The notes under the pieces were generated by a model. It searched no databases, was not told the DNA's origin, and was given only the letters and a program-made list of their open reading frames with translations. This document shows, piece by piece, positions 6,329-15,738 of a DNA stretch of 37,542 nucleotides. Position 1 is the stretch's first letter. Each line of letters begins with the position of its first letter. The stretch spans positions 1 to 37,542 of the forward strand of contig DASWRM010000002.1 in NCBI GenBank assembly GCA_036403155.1. The letters run 5' to 3'. The translations under genes were made by a program, and so were the position numbers. Source of the DNA: Gaiellales bacterium. GTDB taxonomy: Bacteria; Actinomycetota; Thermoleophilia; Gaiellales; JAICJC01.

Positions 6329-6805
6329 ATGATCGACCTGCCCGCGCTCGCCGAACGGATCCACGGGATCCTCGTCCGAGCGGACATCGGGTTCACTCCC
6401 TCCCCGGACGGCCTCGAGTTCTTCGTGCCGATTCGGGACGGCACCGCCGCCGTCATGGTTCGCCCGGGTGAGTTCGGCGACGAGCCGCTGGTGATCTTCC
6501 AGTCGCCGGTGCTGCAGGGCGTGCCGTTCGACGAGGCGGGGGCGCGGGCGCTGGCGGCCGTCAACCTGCGCAATTGCGCCCTCGTGATCGGCCGGCTGGC
6601 CTACTTCGAGGCGGACGGCGTGATCGCGCTCGAGTACGCGATCCTCGCCCGCAGCCTCCAGGCCCAGGAGTTCATCCGCGCGCTGCAGATCGTGGCTGCG
6701 TACGCGGACACGCTGGACGACGACCTGCTGCTGGAGCTCGGTGTGGGCGCGCGCGCCCGGGACGTCTGGGGCGCTCCCCAGCCGGGCGACGCCGGCGCGG
6801 CCTAG
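6329..6805 (+). CDS. YbjN/type III chaperone-like domain protein
   Basis: This is a 158-residue cytoplasmic protein. Residues 1-125 alternate strands and helices in the order of the YbjN/T3SS-chaperone-like fold: IHGILVRADIGFTPSPDGLEF, AVMVRPGEFGDEPLVIFQSPVL, ALAAVNLRNCALVIGRLAYF, VIALEYAILARSLQAQEFIRALQIVAAYAD. In this family the domain is found alone or fused to others and is thought to act in sensing or chaperoning; no enzymatic residues are expected. The last 30 residues are low-complexity. It is transcribed divergently from the LLM oxidoreductase and converges on the MurI-like gene, sharing the CTAG at 6802-6805. Family assignment is by fold pattern and therefore moderate. Confidence 0.7.
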   Translation: MIDLPALAERIHGILVRADIGFTPSPDGLEFFVPIRDGTAAVMVRPGEFGDEPLVIFQSPVLQGVPFDEAGARALAAVNLRNCALVIGRLAYFEADGVIALEYAILARSLQAQEFIRALQIVAAYADTLDDDLLLELGVGARARDVWGAPQPGDAGAA

Positions 6806-7554
6806 AGACGGCTCGCACGCAGTCCGGCCTGGCCGGCGGCCGGGTCCGAGCTGATCAGCTCCCTGCGGCCGGGACGCCGCCTGCTCGTCGTCGCGCCGGC
6901 ACGCATCACGAGCCGTCGCACCCGCTCCGCCGCGAGCGCTGCAGAGTCGACGACTACGATGGACTCTCCCGCCGCGCGCTTGACCTGCACGGCCACCGCG
7001 CTCGCATGCGGGCATCCCAGCGCGATCGCATCAACGCCCGCCGCGGCGAGCCGGGCGATCTCGTCGCCGAGCGTGACGGCGGCACCGCCCTGCTCGACCG
7101 CCGAGCGAAGGCCCGGAACCGCGGACCAGGTGACCATCGAGCCTCCTCGCTCTCGCTTGAGCGCCCGGGCCAGCTGCGCGCCGCGGAGGCAGCCCTCGCC
7201 GGTCATCAGCGCCACCCGGCCGGACCGCGAGCGAGCGGCGGCCTGCGGGACGATGCCGTCGAGCGTCACCACGGGCAGGGGCGCAACGCGCTCGCGGAGC
7301 ACACCGGCCGCGTCAGCCGCCGCCTGCGGGCTGGCCAGCACGAGCAGCTTCGGAGCCCGGTCCGAGATCAGGCCGGCGGCGAGGCGGGTGACGCGGTCGA
7401 CGACGGCCGCCGGCTTGCGCCGCGCGTAGGGCGCGTAGGCATGGTCCGCGAGAAGCACCACGTCCTCCTTGGGGAGCACGCGGGCGATCGCCTCACACAC
7501 GGCGAGGCCACCGAAGCCCGAGGCGAGCACCGCAATCGGGGCGTCAGCGTCCAC
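6802..7554 (-). CDS. MurI-like Asp/Glu racemase homologue lacking key residues
   Basis: This 250-residue protein aligns by eye with glutamate racemase: IAVLASGFGGLAVCEAIARVLPKEDVVLLADHAYAPYARR matches the MurI N-terminus (DSGxGGL...LPxE...DxxxxPYGxr), and VDAIALGCPHASA matches the second active-site block LGCTHYP with Cys181 and His183. However, the catalytic Asp of DSG is Ala11, and the first catalytic Cys block ACNTA reads ASPQA (Ser75). A two-base racemase mechanism would not work. It may be a different Asp/Glu-racemase-superfamily enzyme or a binding protein. It has a C-terminal basic tail. It begins with GTG 9 nt after the GcvT-fusion gene and is surely in its operon. A genuine murI is expected elsewhere. 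Confidence 0.75.
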   Translation of the reverse strand: MDADAPIAVLASGFGGLAVCEAIARVLPKEDVVLLADHAYAPYARRKPAAVVDRVTRLAAGLISDRAPKLLVLASPQAAADAAGVLRERVAPLPVVTLDGIVPQAAARSRSGRVALMTGEGCLRGAQLARALKRERGGSMVTWSAVPGLRSAVEQGGAAVTLGDEIARLAAAGVDAIALGCPHASAVAVQVKRAAGESIVVVDSAALAAERVRRLVMRAGATTSRRRPGRRELISSDPAAGQAGLRASRL

Positions 7555-7563
7555 GGACGCCGG

Positions 7564-9552
7564 CTACGCCCGCGGCCGCGACTTCTCGGGGTCGTAGAGC
7601 GGGTACTGGTCGACGACCGCGGGCACCAGCCGGCCGTCCGGCAGCGTGACCTGCACCTGCGTTCCGGGGGCGGTCAGGCCGGTCTCGATCGATGCCAGCG
7701 CGATCAGCCTGTCAAGCGTGGGCGACCGCCCGGCGCTGGGCGACGTCAGCTTCCCCACCTGCCGGCCGTTCTCGAGCACCGGGGTGTTGTAGTCGGGCGC
7801 ATCGTCGCCCCCGATGACGAGCGTGACCATGCGGTGCGTGATCCCGGCGTCCAGCTCCGCCTGGAGCGCTGCCTTGCCGTGGAAGTCGCCGCCCTCGAGC
7901 TTGACCATGCGGTCGAGGTTCATGTGAAACGGCGACGTGACGCCCGGGAAGTAGTCGTAGCCGAGGAAGATCAGGCCGGCCTCGATCCGCAGGCTCTCGA
8001 CCGCGGCAAGGCCGTAGGGCCGGATGCCCATCGAGGCGCCCTGGTCGAGCAGCCCCTGCCAGACGCGCTCGGCGTCGGCAGGCGAGCAGTAGATCTCGTA
8101 TCCGAGCTCGCCCGAGTAGCCGGTGCGCGCGACCTGGCACTGCACGCCGCACACCGACACCGGCTGCGGGAAGAACCGGAAGTAGCGCAGGCCCTCGATG
8201 TCGGCGTCGGACACGGCCGACAGCAGCTCGCGCGACCGCGGCCCCTGCAGCTGCAGATGCGGCATCTCGAGCGTGTGGTCGGTGATCTCGACGCCGAAGT
8301 CCTTCGTGATCCGCCGGAAGTGGTCGCCGTCGGTGTCGAGCGCGGTGACCACCAACACCCGGTCGTCGTCCTCGCCGCGGAACACGACGCCGTCACCGAG
8401 CATCCTGCCGTTGGCATCCACGAACGGCGCGTAGCGCGCCTGCCCGACCTGGAGCCCGGCCATGTCCGCCGTGAAGCAGTAGTCGACCGCCTCGATCGCG
8501 CGGGCCCCGGTGAAGAACCACTTGCGCAGCGGCGATTCGTCCCAGATCCCGACGGCCTCACGCACGGTGTGGTGCTCGGCGACCGGGTCGCCGAAATCGG
8601 AGATCCAATCCCAGCCCTCCCATTCGGCGAAGGTGCCCCCCATGCGGCGCTGGATGGCGTCGAACGCCGTGCGCAGCAGACCGTCCGGGAAGACGCCGGA
8701 CGGAGCCGGCAGCTCCACCTGCAGACCGGCGGCCGCTGCGGAGTCAAAAGGGGCGGACTCGCCCTCCTGCACCGGCATCGGCACCTCGACCGGCATGATC
8801 GTGGTCGGCGTTGCCCGTCGGGTCAACTCCTGGTGGCCGGGCGGCAGCACCTGCGTGACGCCGAGCAGCGCCCGCGCCGCGGCCGGGTTGGGCAGCGTCC
8901 GGTAGCTCTCGACAGGCACCTTGTCCTCGCGGTCGAGGTTGCGCCGCAGGCGGCGCAGCCGCGCCTGGTAGCCCGCGTCCAGCCCGGGCGTCGAGAAGAT
9001 CGCCTGCTCGACGTAGCTCTCGACGATCTTGTTGCCGACCAGGGATACGTCCGCATCGCGAGCCACGCCGGTGCGCGGCGAGTACGTGACGACCGTCTTG
9101 ACGTGCGCCAGGTAGGCGTTCCACGTGGAGAGGACGACCTCTCCCCGGCAGCGTGCGCCCGTCTCCGGGACGGCGAGCAGGTTGACCTTGCGGTCGTTGA
9201 TCGCCTCGAGCAGCGCCTCCGTGGTGGGGTTGAGGATCGTGACCCACTTGTGGAGAGGCCAGATGTCGAGCTGGTTGAAGTCGCCGGCCTCGCAGCCGAC
9301 CCCGAACAGGTAGGTGTCGCAGTAGCGGAAGAAGTTCCCGGTGCCGAGGGTCTTCCGCATGTGGTCGTAGAAGAGCGTGATCGTGGCGCAGATCAGGTTT
9401 GAGCAGCCGACTGGATCCATCGGCTGGGCGACGACGACCCCGAGCCGGTCGCCCGGCTGGTAGCCGCCGGGCCACAGGTCGGGAAGCGGGTGCGCCTTGC
9501 CGTCCCGCTCGACCGAGAAGTCGCTGCTGTCGAGGGCGTAGGAAGAGTGCAT
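7564..9552 (-). CDS. GcvT-like aminomethyltransferase with novel N-terminal domain
   Basis: This 662-residue protein has two parts. Residues about 295-655 are a folate-binding GcvT/DmdA-type domain: HHTVREAVGIWDESPLRKW, LQVGQARYAPFVDANGRMLGD, LQGPRSRELLSAV, VARTGYSGELGYEIYCSP, YGLAAVESLRIEAGLIFLGYDY and the C-terminal barrel. Such proteins transfer a one-carbon unit from an N-, O- or S-methyl donor to tetrahydrofolate. Residues 1-265 are a folded domain I do not recognise, with PVGCSNLICATITLFYDH, FRYCDTYLFGVGCEAGDFNQ and IWPLHKWVTILNPT; it carries several cysteines and may bind the methyl donor or a second substrate. Its ATG lies 6 nt after TAGGAT. It leads a two-gene operon with the MurI-like protein. 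Confidence 0.82.
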   Translation of the reverse strand: MHSSYALDSSDFSVERDGKAHPLPDLWPGGYQPGDRLGVVVAQPMDPVGCSNLICATITLFYDHMRKTLGTGNFFRYCDTYLFGVGCEAGDFNQLDIWPLHKWVTILNPTTEALLEAINDRKVNLLAVPETGARCRGEVVLSTWNAYLAHVKTVVTYSPRTGVARDADVSLVGNKIVESYVEQAIFSTPGLDAGYQARLRRLRRNLDREDKVPVESYRTLPNPAAARALLGVTQVLPPGHQELTRRATPTTIMPVEVPMPVQEGESAPFDSAAAAGLQVELPAPSGVFPDGLLRTAFDAIQRRMGGTFAEWEGWDWISDFGDPVAEHHTVREAVGIWDESPLRKWFFTGARAIEAVDYCFTADMAGLQVGQARYAPFVDANGRMLGDGVVFRGEDDDRVLVVTALDTDGDHFRRITKDFGVEITDHTLEMPHLQLQGPRSRELLSAVSDADIEGLRYFRFFPQPVSVCGVQCQVARTGYSGELGYEIYCSPADAERVWQGLLDQGASMGIRPYGLAAVESLRIEAGLIFLGYDYFPGVTSPFHMNLDRMVKLEGGDFHGKAALQAELDAGITHRMVTLVIGGDDAPDYNTPVLENGRQVGKLTSPSAGRSPTLDRLIALASIETGLTAPGTQVQVTLPDGRLVPAVVDQYPLYDPEKSRPRA

Positions 9553-11003: not shown

Positions 11004-13277
11004 GTGGCCACAGCAGAGAAGCCGTTCATCCGCCAGGACGGCAAGGACAAGGTGACCGGCCTTGGCCGGTACACCGCCGACCTGACCATGACCGGCATGC
11101 TGCACGCGAAGTTCCGCTACGCCGACCACCCACACGCGCGGATCCTGCGCATCGACACCTCGAAGGCGAAGGCGCTCTCCGGCGTGTTCGCCGTCGTCAC
11201 GCACGAGGACGTCCCCGATGTCCGCTACGGCGCATTCGTTCAGGACCGCAGGCTGTTCGCGAAGTCGACCGTGCGCTACGAGGGCGAGCTGGTGGCCGCG
11301 GTGGCGGCGATGACGCCGGAGATCGCGCAGCGGGCCGTCGAGCTGATCGAGGTCGACTACGAGCCGCTGCCCGTGATCAGGGATGTGGAGGCGGCGCTCG
11401 AGCCCGGATCCCCTCTGGTGCACGAGCAGTGGGCGGACTACGGCGCGTCCGAGGACGTCGTCCGCGAAGGCAACGATTGCTCGCGTTCCACGATCGTCAA
11501 GGGGGACGCGGACAAGGGGATGGCCGAAGCGGACATCGTCGTCAAGGAGCGGTACGTCGCGGACATGTCGCACGCCGTGCCGATCGAGCCGCACGCGATC
11601 GTCGCGCAGTGGCAGGGCGACAAGGTCACCATCTGGTCGTCGACGCAGGTTCCCTACATGGCGCGGATCGGCGTGGCGACGACGCTCGAGATCCCCGAGG
11701 CGCACGTCCGGATCGTCGTGCCGCACCTCGGCGGCGGCTTCGGCGGCAAGTGCGAGTTCCACTACGAGGCCCAGGTGGCCGCGCTCGCGCGCGCAGCGCG
11801 CCGGCCGGTGCGCCTGATCTTCTCGCGCCGGGAGGAGTTCGTGGCCCCCGACCACCGGCGCGAAGGCCAGGTGCTGGAGCTGGAGACGGGCGTCCGGAAG
11901 GACGGCACCATCGTCTCGCGGCGAGGCCGCGTGATCCTCGACAACGGCGCGTACGGCGCCGACGCGCCCTTCTTCCCGCAGCTCGCCGCGATGATGGCCG
12001 TCGGCCCCTACAGGGTCGAGAACGTGTTCATCGACGCGAGCCTCGCGTACACCAACACCACGCCGTCGGGATCCGTGCGGGCCCCCACCGCGCCGCAGGC
12101 CTGCTGGGCGGTCGAGCAGCACATGGACGCCGTGGCCGAGCGGCTGGGGATGGATCCGGTGGAGTTCCGGCGGATGAACATCGTCCGCAACGGGGACGAG
12201 GGCCCCACCCGCCAGGTGTTCGAGGACATCGGCGCAGCCGACACGCTCGAGCGCGCGGTCGAGCTGATCGGCTACGGCAGGGAGTTGCCGGAGGACGAGG
12301 CGATCGGCGTCGCCGTCGGCTGGTGGCCGTCCTTCGGGCTGGCCTCCGGCGCGCATCTCAAGATCAACGGCGACGGCTCGGGCACGATCATCACGGGCGC
12401 CCAGGAGTGCGGCACGGGCGCGGTGATGGCGCTGCCGCTGCTGGCGGCCGAGATCCTCGGAATGCAGCCCGAAGACTTCTCCATCCTCTACCAGGACACG
12501 GACGCGGCTCCGTTCGACAGCGGCGCGTCGGGCTCGCAGACCACGTTCAACAACGGCCGGGCGGTGCAGCGAGCCGCGCTGGACGTGCGCGAGCAGCTGC
12601 TCGACCTGGCGGCGGAGCACCTGGAGGCGAACCGGGACGACCTCGAGCTGAAGGACGGCGCGGTGTCCGTCAAGGGCTCGCCGACGACGAGCGTGAGCAT
12701 CCCCGAGCTGGCGGAAACGGCACAGGGCGGCACCCTGCTGCTCGGCCGTGGCGCCGACGACGTGCCGGCCATGCCGGAGTGCGACGCGTCCGGGTGCACG
12801 GGCCGGCTGGGCATGGAGTCCTTCCTGGCACCGACCTTCATCACGCACGCGGTGCGGTGCAAGGTCGACCGCGAGACGGGTGTCGTGCGTGTGCTCGAGG
12901 TGGCCGCCGTGCACGAGTCCGGGCGCGTGCTGAACCCGATCGGCGCCAACGGTCAGGTCGAGGGCGGGGTCGTCATGGGCATCGGCATGGCGCTGCTCGA
13001 GGGCTCGCTGGTGGGCGACGACGGGCGCCAGAAGAACCCCCACCTGCTGGACTACAAGCTGCAGACGGCGAGCGACTCGCCGCCCATCCACATCGAGTGG
13101 ATCGACTCGCCGACGAAGCCGGGGGCGGGCGGTCCCAACGGTTCGAAGGGGATCGGCGAGCCACCGTGCGTCCCCACGCCCGGCGCCGTCGGCAACGCGA
13201 TCGCCAGGGTGACCGGCAAGCGCGTGCACGAGCTGCCGATGACGCCCACCCGTGTGTGGGAGGCGGCGCAGCGATGA
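11004..13277 (+). CDS. Xanthine dehydrogenase-family molybdopterin-binding subunit
   Basis: This 757-residue protein is the catalytic subunit of a molybdenum hydroxylase, which adds an oxygen from water to an N-heterocycle or aldehyde. The order is the a/b hammerhead domain (VTGLGRYTADLTMTGMLHAK onward), then the two Mo-cofactor domains. GGGFGGK (243-249) binds the cofactor, and KGIGEPP carries the conserved catalytic Glu719. The active-site loop reads GSVRAPTAPQ (356-365), not the CSFR of CO dehydrogenase nor the usual FRGFGAPQ of xanthine dehydrogenases, so the substrate differs or is unknown. GTG start with AAGGAG 5 nt upstream. Its stop overlaps the next gene as ATGA. Subunit order is large, FAD, FeS; no maturation gene (xdhC/coxF) is in view. 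Confidence 0.93.
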   Translation: MATAEKPFIRQDGKDKVTGLGRYTADLTMTGMLHAKFRYADHPHARILRIDTSKAKALSGVFAVVTHEDVPDVRYGAFVQDRRLFAKSTVRYEGELVAAVAAMTPEIAQRAVELIEVDYEPLPVIRDVEAALEPGSPLVHEQWADYGASEDVVREGNDCSRSTIVKGDADKGMAEADIVVKERYVADMSHAVPIEPHAIVAQWQGDKVTIWSSTQVPYMARIGVATTLEIPEAHVRIVVPHLGGGFGGKCEFHYEAQVAALARAARRPVRLIFSRREEFVAPDHRREGQVLELETGVRKDGTIVSRRGRVILDNGAYGADAPFFPQLAAMMAVGPYRVENVFIDASLAYTNTTPSGSVRAPTAPQACWAVEQHMDAVAERLGMDPVEFRRMNIVRNGDEGPTRQVFEDIGAADTLERAVELIGYGRELPEDEAIGVAVGWWPSFGLASGAHLKINGDGSGTIITGAQECGTGAVMALPLLAAEILGMQPEDFSILYQDTDAAPFDSGASGSQTTFNNGRAVQRAALDVREQLLDLAAEHLEANRDDLELKDGAVSVKGSPTTSVSIPELAETAQGGTLLLGRGADDVPAMPECDASGCTGRLGMESFLAPTFITHAVRCKVDRETGVVRVLEVAAVHESGRVLNPIGANGQVEGGVVMGIGMALLEGSLVGDDGRQKNPHLLDYKLQTASDSPPIHIEWIDSPTKPGAGGPNGSKGIGEPPCVPTPGAVGNAIARVTGKRVHELPMTPTRVWEAAQR

Positions 13278-14194
13278 CCGCAACCTCGTACACGGCCGCA
13301 GGCACGCTCGACCAGGCGCTCGAGGCGCTGGCCGCCGGGGCGCGCCCGATTGCGGGCGGCACCGACCTGGTGGTCGGGGCGCGCAGCGGAAAGGCGCCCC
13401 TGCCAGAGTCGATCGTCGCAATCCACCGGCTGGCCTCTGACCTTCGGCACATCGGCGAGCGGGACGGCGCACTGGTGCTCGGCGCGCTGGCGACCCACGC
13501 GGACATCGTGGCCTCGGACAGCGTCTGCGACCGCTACACCGCGCTCGCGGACGCCTCCGCCATCGTCGGCAGCCACGCCACGCGCAGCACCGGCACGATC
13601 GGCGGCAACGTGATGAACGCATCGCCCGCGATGGAAACGGGCGGGCCGCTGATCTGCTTCGACGCGGTCGCGACGCTGCGGACGGCGAGCGGACGGCGGG
13701 AGATCGCAGTGGCGGAGCTCTTCACCGGGCCCGGTCGCACGACCGCCGGCGCGGACGAGCTGTTGACGGCGATCTCGCTGCCGGCGCCGCCCGCCGGCAC
13801 GGGCAGCTGCTATGCGCGGCTCGAATACCGGCGTCAGATGGAGATCGCGATCGTCGGCGCCACGGCGGTCGTCACGCTGGACGGCGGCACGGTGACCGAC
13901 GCGCGGATCGCGATCACCGCGCTTGCCCCGACGATCCATCGCGTCCCCGAGGCGGAGGCCGCGCTCACTGGGAGCGACGGCGGAACGGCGGCGGTCTCGG
14001 CCGCCGCCACGGCGGCAGCCGACGCATCGCGGCCGATCTCGGACGTCCGCGGATCGGCCGAGTACCGGCGCGCGATGGCGGCGGTCATCGCCCGACGCGC
14101 AATCGCGACGGCCCTGGCCCGCGCACGCGGCGAGGCGTTCCCGATCCCAGCCAGCCCCGCGCTGCATGGTGCGGCGAACGGAGGAGCAGCATGA
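13274..14194 (+). CDS. Molybdenum hydroxylase FAD-binding subunit (CoxM-like)
   Basis: This 306-residue medium subunit passes electrons from the 2Fe-2S subunit to its acceptor. The FAD-binding motifs are ARPIAGGTDLVVGAR (pyrophosphate loop, about 24-37) and GTIGGNVMNASPAMETGGPL (about 107-126), followed by the CO_deh_flav_C domain with YARLEYRRQMEIAIVGATAVV. The C-terminal domain is complete (ISDVRGSAEYRRAMAAVIAR). The gene overlaps the large subunit by ATGA (13274-13277) and the FeS subunit by ATGA (14191-14194), so the complex is made by coupled translation. The acceptor, whether a quinone, NAD or other carrier, cannot be told. Confidence 0.93.
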   Translation: MTATSYTAAGTLDQALEALAAGARPIAGGTDLVVGARSGKAPLPESIVAIHRLASDLRHIGERDGALVLGALATHADIVASDSVCDRYTALADASAIVGSHATRSTGTIGGNVMNASPAMETGGPLICFDAVATLRTASGRREIAVAELFTGPGRTTAGADELLTAISLPAPPAGTGSCYARLEYRRQMEIAIVGATAVVTLDGGTVTDARIAITALAPTIHRVPEAEAALTGSDGGTAAVSAAATAAADASRPISDVRGSAEYRRAMAAVIARRAIATALARARGEAFPIPASPALHGAANGGAA

Positions 14195-14655
14195 GGTACG
14201 AGGCGACCCTGCACGTGAACGGCGCCGCCTATCCGGTGGAGATCGAGCCCGGCCGCAGCCTGCTCTCGGTGATCCGCACGGAGGTCGGCCTGACCGGGGC
14301 CAAGGAAGGCTGCGACGACTCGGAGTGCGGCGCCTGCATGGTGCTGCTCGACGGCGAGCCGGTGAACGCATGCTCGTACCTGGCGCTGCAGGCCGACGGC
14401 CGCGAGATCACGACGATCGAGGGGCTGACCGGCGAGGACGGCGGGATGCATCCGCTGCAGGAGGCGTTCCTGGACCAGGGCGGCGTGCAGTGCGGGTTCT
14501 GCACCCCCGGCATGCTGATCTCGGCCAAGGCGCTGCTCGACCGCACGCCCGACCCGAGCGAGGAGGAGATCCGCCTCGCGCTCTCGGGGAACCTCTGCCG
14601 GTGCACCGGCTACTCGGGGATCGTGCGGGCGGTTCAGGCCGCCGCGGCGCGCTGA
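14191..14655 (+). CDS. Molybdenum hydroxylase 2Fe-2S subunit (CoxS-like)
   Basis: This 154-residue small subunit carries two [2Fe-2S] clusters. The plant-ferredoxin-type cluster uses Cys41, Cys46, Cys49 and Cys61 (GCDDSECGAC ... NAC). The second, helical-domain cluster uses Cys101, Cys104, Cys136 and Cys138 (QCGFCTPGM ... NLCRCTGY). All eight ligands are present and spacing is canonical, so the subunit should be functional. It is the last gene of the three-gene operon and overlaps the FAD subunit by 4 nt. Only 6 nt separate its stop from the stop of the convergent PLP enzyme. Confidence 0.96.
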   Translation: MRYEATLHVNGAAYPVEIEPGRSLLSVIRTEVGLTGAKEGCDDSECGACMVLLDGEPVNACSYLALQADGREITTIEGLTGEDGGMHPLQEAFLDQGGVQCGFCTPGMLISAKALLDRTPDPSEEEIRLALSGNLCRCTGYSGIVRAVQAAAAR

Positions 14656-14661
14656 GCCGCG

Positions 14662-15738
14662 TCAGGTGCGGCGGCCCCGCGCCGCCACCGCCCAGACCGC
14701 CTCGACCTCGCCACGGCGGGCGGCGACCAGCTCGTCGCTGAGGTTGACGGTCGTGCAGACATGCGCCGGTGTGAAGGCGATCCGCTCGCCCACGCGCACC
14801 GGCCGCGCGGTGCTGCCGACGCCGTGCTCCTCGGTGAGCGCGTCGATCACGACCGCACCGTCGATGCTGCGCGCGACCATCCGGCCCCGGTCGCCGGCGA
14901 GCACTGCATCGCCGGAGAAGGTCTTCGATCCTGCGTCCACGGTGACCCGGCCCGGCCTGTTCACGCTGACAACCGTCGCCCATATGGACAATGCGCAGTC
15001 CTGTAGCTCCGCCGCTCCAAGCCCGACCTGCATCAGGTCGTTGAACACGTACGTTCCCGCGCGCACCTCCGTGACACCGGCCGCCTTCGCCGCGGCCCGG
15101 CCGGTCGGCGTGCTGCCCACAGCCACGTCCGCCAGGCCCAGCGCCGCCGCCGTCGCCACCGCCAGCCGCGCCTCCTCGCGGCCGGCAGCCGCGGGTTCCG
15201 GCGCACTGTCGAACGCGACGCCGCGGTAGGTCGTCACGCCGTGCAGCCGCAGGCCGGGGAGGCGCTCGACCAGATCCGCCAGCCGGCGCACCTCCTCGCG
15301 GTCGGCCACCGGAACCCCGCAGCGTCCGAGCCCCGTGTCGAGGTCGACGTGGACGTCGATCTGCACGCCCTCGGCGCTCGCGGCCCGCGAGATGCCCTCG
15401 GCGGCCTCGCCGTTCTCGACGTTGACGCCGATGCGCGCGCCGGACGCCAGCCGCGCCAGCCTGCGCCACGCGCCCTCGCCGAACACCGGGTAGGCGACGA
15501 CCACGTCGGCGAAGCCCGCTGCGACGTACACCTCCGCCTCAGCCACCTTCGCGGCCGTGATGCCGCACGCCCCGGCGCCGAGCTGCATCCGTGCCAGCTC
15601 CAGCGTCTTGTGCGTCTTCACGTGCGGCCGAAACCGGGCGCCGCCCACGGTCGCGTCGCGCTGCCAGGCGCTCAGGTTCCGCTCGAGCGCGTCGAGGTCG
15701 ACGACGAGGCACGGGGTGGGCAGCTCGTCGACGGTCAT
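14662..15738 (-). CDS. D-threonine aldolase/D-serine dehydratase-like PLP enzyme
   Basis: This 358-residue enzyme has the alanine-racemase N-terminal TIM barrel plus the D-serine-dehydratase-like C-terminal domain. DELPTPCLVVDLDALERN opens the barrel. RFRPHVKTHKTLELARMQ holds the PLP-binding lysine (the Lys of HVKTHK). HVDLDTGLGRCGVP, VGSTPT and VRAGTYVFNDLMQV contact the cofactor phosphate. The C-terminal metal-site region has EEHG (ALTEEHGVGSTA) and the FTPAHVCTTVNL block with the usual His and Cys. Members cleave D-threonine-like amino acids or dehydrate D-serine with PLP and a divalent metal. I start at ATG 15738, 5 nt after TAGGGT. The frame opens further upstream, but those residues are not family-like. 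Confidence 0.9.
   Translation of the reverse strand: MTVDELPTPCLVVDLDALERNLSAWQRDATVGGARFRPHVKTHKTLELARMQLGAGACGITAAKVAEAEVYVAAGFADVVVAYPVFGEGAWRRLARLASGARIGVNVENGEAAEGISRAASAEGVQIDVHVDLDTGLGRCGVPVADREEVRRLADLVERLPGLRLHGVTTYRGVAFDSAPEPAAAGREEARLAVATAAALGLADVAVGSTPTGRAAAKAAGVTEVRAGTYVFNDLMQVGLGAAELQDCALSIWATVVSVNRPGRVTVDAGSKTFSGDAVLAGDRGRMVARSIDGAVVIDALTEEHGVGSTARPVRVGERIAFTPAHVCTTVNLSDELVAARRGEVEAVWAVAARGRRT

Follow-up and report, generated by a model that had tools for sequence, protein, structure and literature searches.

The window, a stretch of 37,542 nucleotides from a Gaiellales bacterium, carries a gene that joins a protein family without a name to a folate-binding domain of the GcvT type. 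The gene (7564..9552, minus strand) encodes 662 residues, which the list of open reading frames, Pfam and NCBIfam together resolve into an uncharacterised N-terminal domain, a linker and the folate domain. We give a probability of about 0.6 to the reading that its product is a tetrahydrofolate-dependent C1 acceptor or demethylase of N-methylated amine catabolism, predicted to work with a new partner domain. GcvT-type folate C1 transferases are already known; what is new here is the unnamed N-terminal family fused to one of them. Since this family is fused to a folate module and some relatives lie among methylated-amine genes, the protein probably belongs to an undescribed route that removes methyl groups from nitrogen compounds. 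Folate-coupled demethylases decide the bacterial use of betaine, choline, TMAO and methylamines as sources of carbon and nitrogen. A family unmatched in Pfam and NCBIfam that occurs in three broad prokaryote groups, repeatedly in methyl-amine clusters, suggests that a step or an enzyme is still missing from the known pathways, and the existence of both a fusion and a split version (locus L061) makes the hypothesis directly testable.

The open reading frame spans exactly 7564-9552, starts with ATG and has AGGAT six bases 5' of its start codon. It was found again in 13 relatives at 62-85% identity, and the N-terminal parts of the window gene and its nearest relative differ at 25, 11 and 87 first, second and third codon positions, respectively, which together argue that the frame did not arise by chance. 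The first-pass annotation had described a fusion with a folate aminomethyltransferase in the last 360 residues or so. The fusion is genuine, as a single 662-residue frame that recurs in relatives, and Pfam identifies its C-terminal part as GCV_T at residues 299-548 (7909..8658; E 3.5e-60, 203.8 bits for a cut-off of 25.6) followed by the GCV_T_C barrel domain at residues 574-654 (7591..7833; E 2.8e-14, 53.2 bits for a cut-off of 25.9). The whole GcvT-type part covers about residues 292-656. It is preceded by a Pro/Ala-rich linker (about residues 233-291; 8680..8856), delimited by our own reading of the translation and by low pLDDT, and by the N-terminal domain (about residues 1-232; 8857..9552). 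The latter had been drawn as an unassigned domain of 265 residues: the part is indeed unassigned, but its conserved domain ends nearer to residue 230, since most stand-alone homologues stop around there.

When aligned to solved proteins, Asp387 (8392..8394) occupies the position of D552 in dimethylglycine oxidase and of D96 in the T-protein of T. maritima: the catalytic aspartate is retained in the fusion. PDB titles record mutations of D552 (D552A in 3gsi) and of the E. coli D97 (D97N in 3a8k). In the DD pair, Gly takes the place of the first Asp in the window protein, and Ser does so in dimethylglycine oxidase. By raw scores, the folate half appears about equally close to TMAO demethylase (Tdm) and to glycine-cleavage GcvT, with 240.3 versus 237.6 bits in NCBIfam and 165.1 versus 163.9 bits for the best PDB sequences. 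Both glycine-cleavage T-protein models remained below their cut-offs (237.6 of 300 and 191.4 of 235.85 bits), and these scores and a separate clade would place the fused protein outside the glycine-cleavage T-proteins. We built a maximum-likelihood tree of 56 GcvT domains, with a midpoint root for drawing only. The fused proteins are monophyletic in it (13 rows, 100/100), and their nearest relatives are stand-alone GcvTs at loci L122, L124 and L127 (100/100), of which L122 shows 49.5% and L127 48.1% identity with the window protein. The fused clade and these three sisters fall with Tdm and the DmdA-like proteins on one branch (98/98), which excludes glycine-cleavage GcvT, SoxA and the dimethylglycine dehydrogenases. 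Three rows of the tree have long branches, and some inner supports are low (84/71 for the Tdm/DmdA-like group). The idea of a demethylase-type folate domain, already put forward in the first-pass annotation, thus agrees with the phylogeny, which sets it on the Tdm/DmdA-like side and not with glycine-cleavage GcvT.

Other folate-dependent systems resemble the fused protein in part. Dimethylglycine oxidases and dehydrogenases (DAO-FAO_M-GCV_T), whose folate complexes have been solved according to PDB titles, have in common with it the GcvT half and the aligned aspartate, but the fused protein differs in its N-terminal domain, lies on a separate branch of the tree and has no FAD/DAO half; the FAD-binding DAO domain expected of a dimethylglycine or sarcosine dehydrogenase or oxidase is absent from it by Pfam. 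DmdA and LigM/DesA are demethylases of the GcvT fold, like the folate half, but have no such N-terminal module, and the fused protein reaches 130.5 of 410 bits on the DmdA model and 60.2 of 580 on the LigM model. DmdA-like proteins occupy a neighbouring branch, and one of them adjoins a stand-alone N-terminal domain (L061, see below).

The N-terminal domain is a real family without a name in Pfam, NCBIfam or the PDB sequences. Residues 1-265 have no match at E<=1 among the 24736 models of Pfam or the 18950 of NCBIfam, so the known domain that could have explained this part is absent from Pfam. PDB sequences gave matches at chance level only, also with a profile of 25 members (best E 0.49), and family members searched singly gave no convincing match in Pfam (best E 0.083) or NCBIfam (0.029). 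Formaldehyde-activating enzyme and creatininase were considered as identities of the domain and dropped, by eye only. Among the window's own genome and 60 relatives, the domain occurs in 17 of 61 genomes: the fused type is present in 15, own genome included and with some copies cut by a contig edge, and stand-alone paralogues of about 226 residues are present in five. Genomes G017 and G038 have only a contig-end fragment resembling the fused type, and G017 also has a stand-alone paralogue. Further away, a profile of the family (A2) matched 20 of 299 genomes of the class and 5 of 396 of the phylum, eight of these genomes having distant stand-alone copies; a second profile (A4) retrieved the same 5 phylum genomes. 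Within the family of G342, matches were found in 3 of 39 genomes. The distribution is patchy. Plasmid records added 16 matches, from Paracoccus, Mesorhizobium, Terrarubrum, Rhodococcus, Arthrobacter and four haloarchaea, 14 of them annotated as hypothetical protein and 2 without annotation. Stand-alone homologues are thus spread over other Actinomycetota, Alphaproteobacteria and haloarchaea, at 24-39% identity. A search for viral relatives of one stand-alone member returned 9 stretches that fitted the pattern, none of which was confirmed.

To describe conservation, we used the A4 alignment of 25 members, which includes 8 of the 16 plasmid matches. Ten positions are invariant in it: H2, F12, G18, R36, Y77, D96, P99, L126, Y157 and L229, the histidine lying at or near the protein start. 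The invariant polar residues H2, R36, Y77, D96 and Y157 suggest that the domain binds a ligand or has a catalytic role. The Cys/Trp/His blocks stressed by the first-pass annotation fared less well: C50 and C87, in or near these blocks, are kept in the fused clade, but neither is found in the aligned stand-alone relatives, and no cysteine is conserved across the 25-member alignment. The stand-alone paralogue of genus g6 (L016, L018-L020, L060, L066, L067) also has neither of the fused-clade cysteines.

Structure prediction was informative for the folate half. AlphaFold2, run on an input of 14 sequences, gave a pLDDT of 35.7 for the N-terminal domain alone and of 48.7 for the full protein, where it was good only at residues about 340-510. 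The predicted model of residues 292-550 superimposes on the T-protein 1wos (Z 23.5, rmsd 3.1, 229 residues aligned), in line with a predicted GcvT fold, and the C-terminal barrel is poorly predicted. At residues 1-230, the full model has a pLDDT of 24-71 per ten-residue block, and at this low confidence suggests alternating strands and helices. A fold search with the full model matched T-proteins, DMGDH/DMGO, sarcosine oxidase chains, DmdA, LigM, YgfZ and Iba57, and more weakly RNase P/MRP subunits, aspartate kinase regulatory domains and MnmE; no TMAO demethylase entry was among the matches listed. As 49 of the 50 listed matches align inside residues 281-577, the remaining one (3c1n, rmsd 16) starting at residue 36, this search says little on the N-terminal domain.

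The fused gene has a conserved partner. Nine base pairs downstream in the window lies a degenerate glutamate-racemase-like (MurI-like) gene (6802..7554, minus strand), recognised by Pfam, NCBIfam and alignments. All 13 genomes with DNA downstream of the fused gene have a MurI-like gene there, the contigs of L022 and L023 (2 of the 15 fused genomes) stopping before any downstream gene, and in 12 of these 13 no gene lies between the two. The exception is L031 (genome G026), where a stand-alone GcvT of 388 residues (7995-9161) is placed between them. Spacing ranges from a 4-bp GTGA overlap (L025, L028, L029, L030 and L032) to about 118 bp or more in L021. Two of the copies are partial, with the first 63 residues before the contig end in L030 and residues 3-84 aligned in L068. 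The MurI-like protein aligns with the glutamate racemase 5ijw over most of its length (residues 2-216, E 6.6e-17). In this alignment the window protein has Ser in place of the first catalytic Cys and retains the second, by which it would not qualify as a two-cysteine glutamate racemase. The first position is other than Cys in 12 of the 12 genomes whose copy covers the site. The second Cys is still present in the copies of the window, L021, L024 and L025; seven g6 copies have lost it. The adjoining gene had been called a non-racemase relative of MurI, and the loss of the first cysteine here, and of both in some relatives, bears this out. The degenerate protein is probably a ligand-binding or structural partner of the fused protein. 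Convergent with its gene is a YbjN / TY-Chap1-type gene (6329-6805, plus strand; Pfam E 1.1e-12). On another note, Paracoccus yeei has an annotated Asp/Glu racemase gene (L073:14352-15053, minus strand) some 4.5 kb away from its stand-alone N-domain gene.

We then considered the genes around the fused loci and their sister GcvTs. At L026-L029, L031 and L032, the fused gene has a DAO gene (judged MSOX-like by eye) upstream, which ends 0.7-1.1 kb before it, and at L030 one lies 3.1 kb upstream; these seven loci all belong to one genus (g6). Between the DAO and fused genes, a SirB1-like gene (named by eye) is present in 5 of 6 cases, L029 having only an overlapping longer frame. No DAO-family gene was found in the window with the local DAO profile, and Pfam revealed no amine-specific enzyme among five window neighbours. 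Of the sister GcvTs, L127 (in L140) adjoins the gene of a DAO flavoenzyme, and genes of a GATase and of the glutamine-synthetase family lie some kb off; L122 (in L142) has a DAO gene one gene away; and close to L124 (in L141) are genes for an M24 peptidase, a homocysteine S-methyltransferase and, recognised by eye, ETF subunits. A GcvT outside the tree (L143), 77.8% identical to L127, lies near a CCG/4Fe-4S protein.

The stand-alone N-domains have varied neighbours. At L061 the N-domain gene and then a DmdA-like GcvT gene come directly one after the other on one strand, 77 bp apart by mechanically assigned starts, so that two separate genes stand in the order of the fusion, with a DAO-FAO_M-GCV_T gene alongside. 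This GcvT scores 334.6 bits against the DmdA cut-off of 410 and is 31% identical to the fused GcvT. At L059, GcvT, DAO and N-domain genes are consecutive. The neighbours are a glycine-betaine ABC transporter, DAO and M24 at L057; an NADH:flavin oxidoreductase, ETF and GcvT at L064; and an NADH:flavin oxidoreductase, CCG/4Fe-4S and genes clustering with the ETF genes of L064 at L062. At L063, glutamine synthetase, GATase, GXGXG and glutamate-synthase-like genes and a gene of 147 residues precede the N-domain gene, with DAO near; the best NCBIfam match of the glutamine synthetase is type III (332 of 469.6 bits). In its composition this set resembles, by analogy, N-methylglutamate synthase together with gamma-glutamylmethylamide synthetase. 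The neighbourhoods of L058 and L065 were uninformative. Among the matches listed, 3 of the 8 distant stand-alone loci (G176, G289 and G364) have a GcvT within 6 kb (expected 0.19, P about 6e-4), and 2 of the 8 have one within 3 kb (expected 0.09, P about 4e-3). These values come from a rough Poisson model with distance limits picked after seeing the data and with loci that are not independent, three being in one family, two in one genus and two in another family. The DAO genes, here as at the fused loci, are counted without a background rate, and the DAO profile was derived in part from these eight loci. At the other 5 of 8, no GcvT occurs within 6 kb among the matches listed.

Other copies are found in different settings. 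The g6 paralogue lies beside a copper amine oxidase and RidA (by Pfam at L060, by clustering at L066 and L067). Flavin oxidoreductases are near the plasmid copies of Rhodococcus, Arthrobacter, Mesorhizobium, Terrarubrum and Natrinema, the Natrinema copy also having a BCCT transporter nearby and the Terrarubrum copy a glutamate-synthase-family gene and glnT. No obvious methyl-amine genes were seen near the plasmid copies of Paracoccus yeei, Haloterrigena, Halococcus and Halomarina, and the P. versutus plasmid record carries no annotation around its copy. The context of the g6 paralogue and the plasmid copies without methyl-amine genes suggest that the range of the family may extend to amines or amino acids more generally.

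Given these surroundings, we infer that the substrate of the fused protein is an amine and, from the neighbouring genes, that the N-terminal domain binds a methylated donor. In the mechanism we propose, the N-terminal domain would supply or position a methylated (or oxidised, imine-type) donor, and Asp387 of the GcvT domain would serve to transfer a methylene or methyl group from the nitrogen compound to tetrahydrofolate. The domain would thus perform in cis what its stand-alone homologues may do in trans near GcvT, flavin amine dehydrogenase and N-methylglutamate-type genes, with the MurI-like protein as a ligand-binding or structural partner. This reading is supported by the two Pfam domains with D387, the position on the demethylase side of the tree, the conserved two-gene operon, the adjacency at L061, the other gene contexts of the sister GcvTs and stand-alone N-domains, and the DAO genes upstream of the seven g6 fused genes. 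Counting against it are the lack of a DAO gene in the window and of an amine-specific enzyme among the five neighbours scanned, the 5 of 8 distant loci without a listed GcvT within 6 kb, the different settings of the g6 paralogue and of several plasmid copies, the patchy distribution of the family, and the GcvT at L061, which is DmdA-like and not the closest relative of the fused one.

A possible but clearly less probable explanation is that the N-terminal domain is a non-catalytic regulatory or assembly module, that GcvT and a separate oxidase do the chemistry, and that the pair only scavenges methylene. Small stand-alone members beside varied oxidases would fit such a module, as would the fact that some of the ten invariant residues are atypical for an active site. 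However, the polar residues among them are invariant in archaea and bacteria alike, and there are stand-alone copies without a GcvT nearby, among the matches listed. In the opposite direction, and no less tentatively, one may speculate that the domain itself catalyses demethylation, as a new kind of module based on neither flavin nor DUF1989. It would release a methyl or methylene group from a quaternary or N-methylated amino compound and pass it to the attached GcvT, with the catalytically dead racemase-like protein as an obligate amino-acid-binding subunit. If this were true, the stand-alone relatives would form an enzyme family, so far overlooked, that takes part in the catabolism of betaine and methylamines in bacteria and haloarchaea.

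It is unlikely that the fused protein is a variant of TMAO demethylase, in which the N-terminal domain would be a diverged DUF1989 module of a redox-neutral N-oxide or similar demethylase. The resemblance is real in outline: Tdm (NF053776; PDB 9q59/9q5a) also has N-terminal module(s) followed by a GcvT-type C-terminal half, scores highest against the folate half in both NCBIfam and the PDB sequences, barely above glycine-cleavage GcvT, and has the C-terminal tail YDPxKxRPR in common with the fused protein. PMC12560246 describes the N-terminal half of Tdm as DUF1989 plus a DUF1989-like domain missed by InterPro, these DUF1989-type modules including one with zinc cysteines. The N-terminal domain of the fused protein is, in contrast, one shorter module without profile similarity to them, and no cysteine is conserved across its family. 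On the Tdm model, the fused protein obtains 240.3 bits, from its C-terminal half only, for a cut-off of 1100, which would leave it outside the family, whereas a true member of the same order (L097) obtains 1181.7. Pfam found no DUF1989 (PF09347) in the fused protein or its own genome. We also compared the N-terminal domain with sets of DUF1989 proteins and of TMAO-demethylase-type proteins from related genomes (L097 being the one scored among the latter). Eight hhalign comparisons gave E values of 0.2-0.84, versus 1.9e-34 for DUF1989 against the DUF1989 module of Tdm, and 1.6e-38 and 5.6e-23 for the fused set against the stand-alone and haloarchaeal sets. At the profile level, DUF1989 was therefore rejected as the identity of the domain. 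The weakest control, DUF1989 sets against the diverged N-terminal domain of Tdm, was marginal (E 5e-4 and 1e-3; probability 32 and 21%), and a very distant relation, with a DUF1989-like fold that left no trace in sequence, may exist. In the same class, DUF1989-containing proteins of the TMAO-demethylase type, whose GcvT halves form one clade, occur at L094, L097-L102 and L119.

Finally, copper amine oxidase, RidA, arginase and amino-acid permeases as neighbours might point to a general amine or amino-acid catabolic protein, not engaged in demethylation and fused by chance to a now vestigial folate domain, which is improbable given the retained catalytic Asp, the 62-85% identity throughout the clade, GcvT half included, the N-domain gene directly 5' of a GcvT gene in another lineage (L061) and the extra stand-alone GcvT within the L031 operon.

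Two further observations concern the vicinity of fused genes. About 1.5 kb from the one in the window lies a molybdenum hydroxylase (xanthine-dehydrogenase-like) set, recognised by eye (11004-14655, plus strand), parts of which cluster with genes of the nearest genome (G001). At L072, a trimethylamine methyltransferase (MTTB) family gene (14007-15464, minus strand) is found about 2.4 kb past the end of the fused gene.
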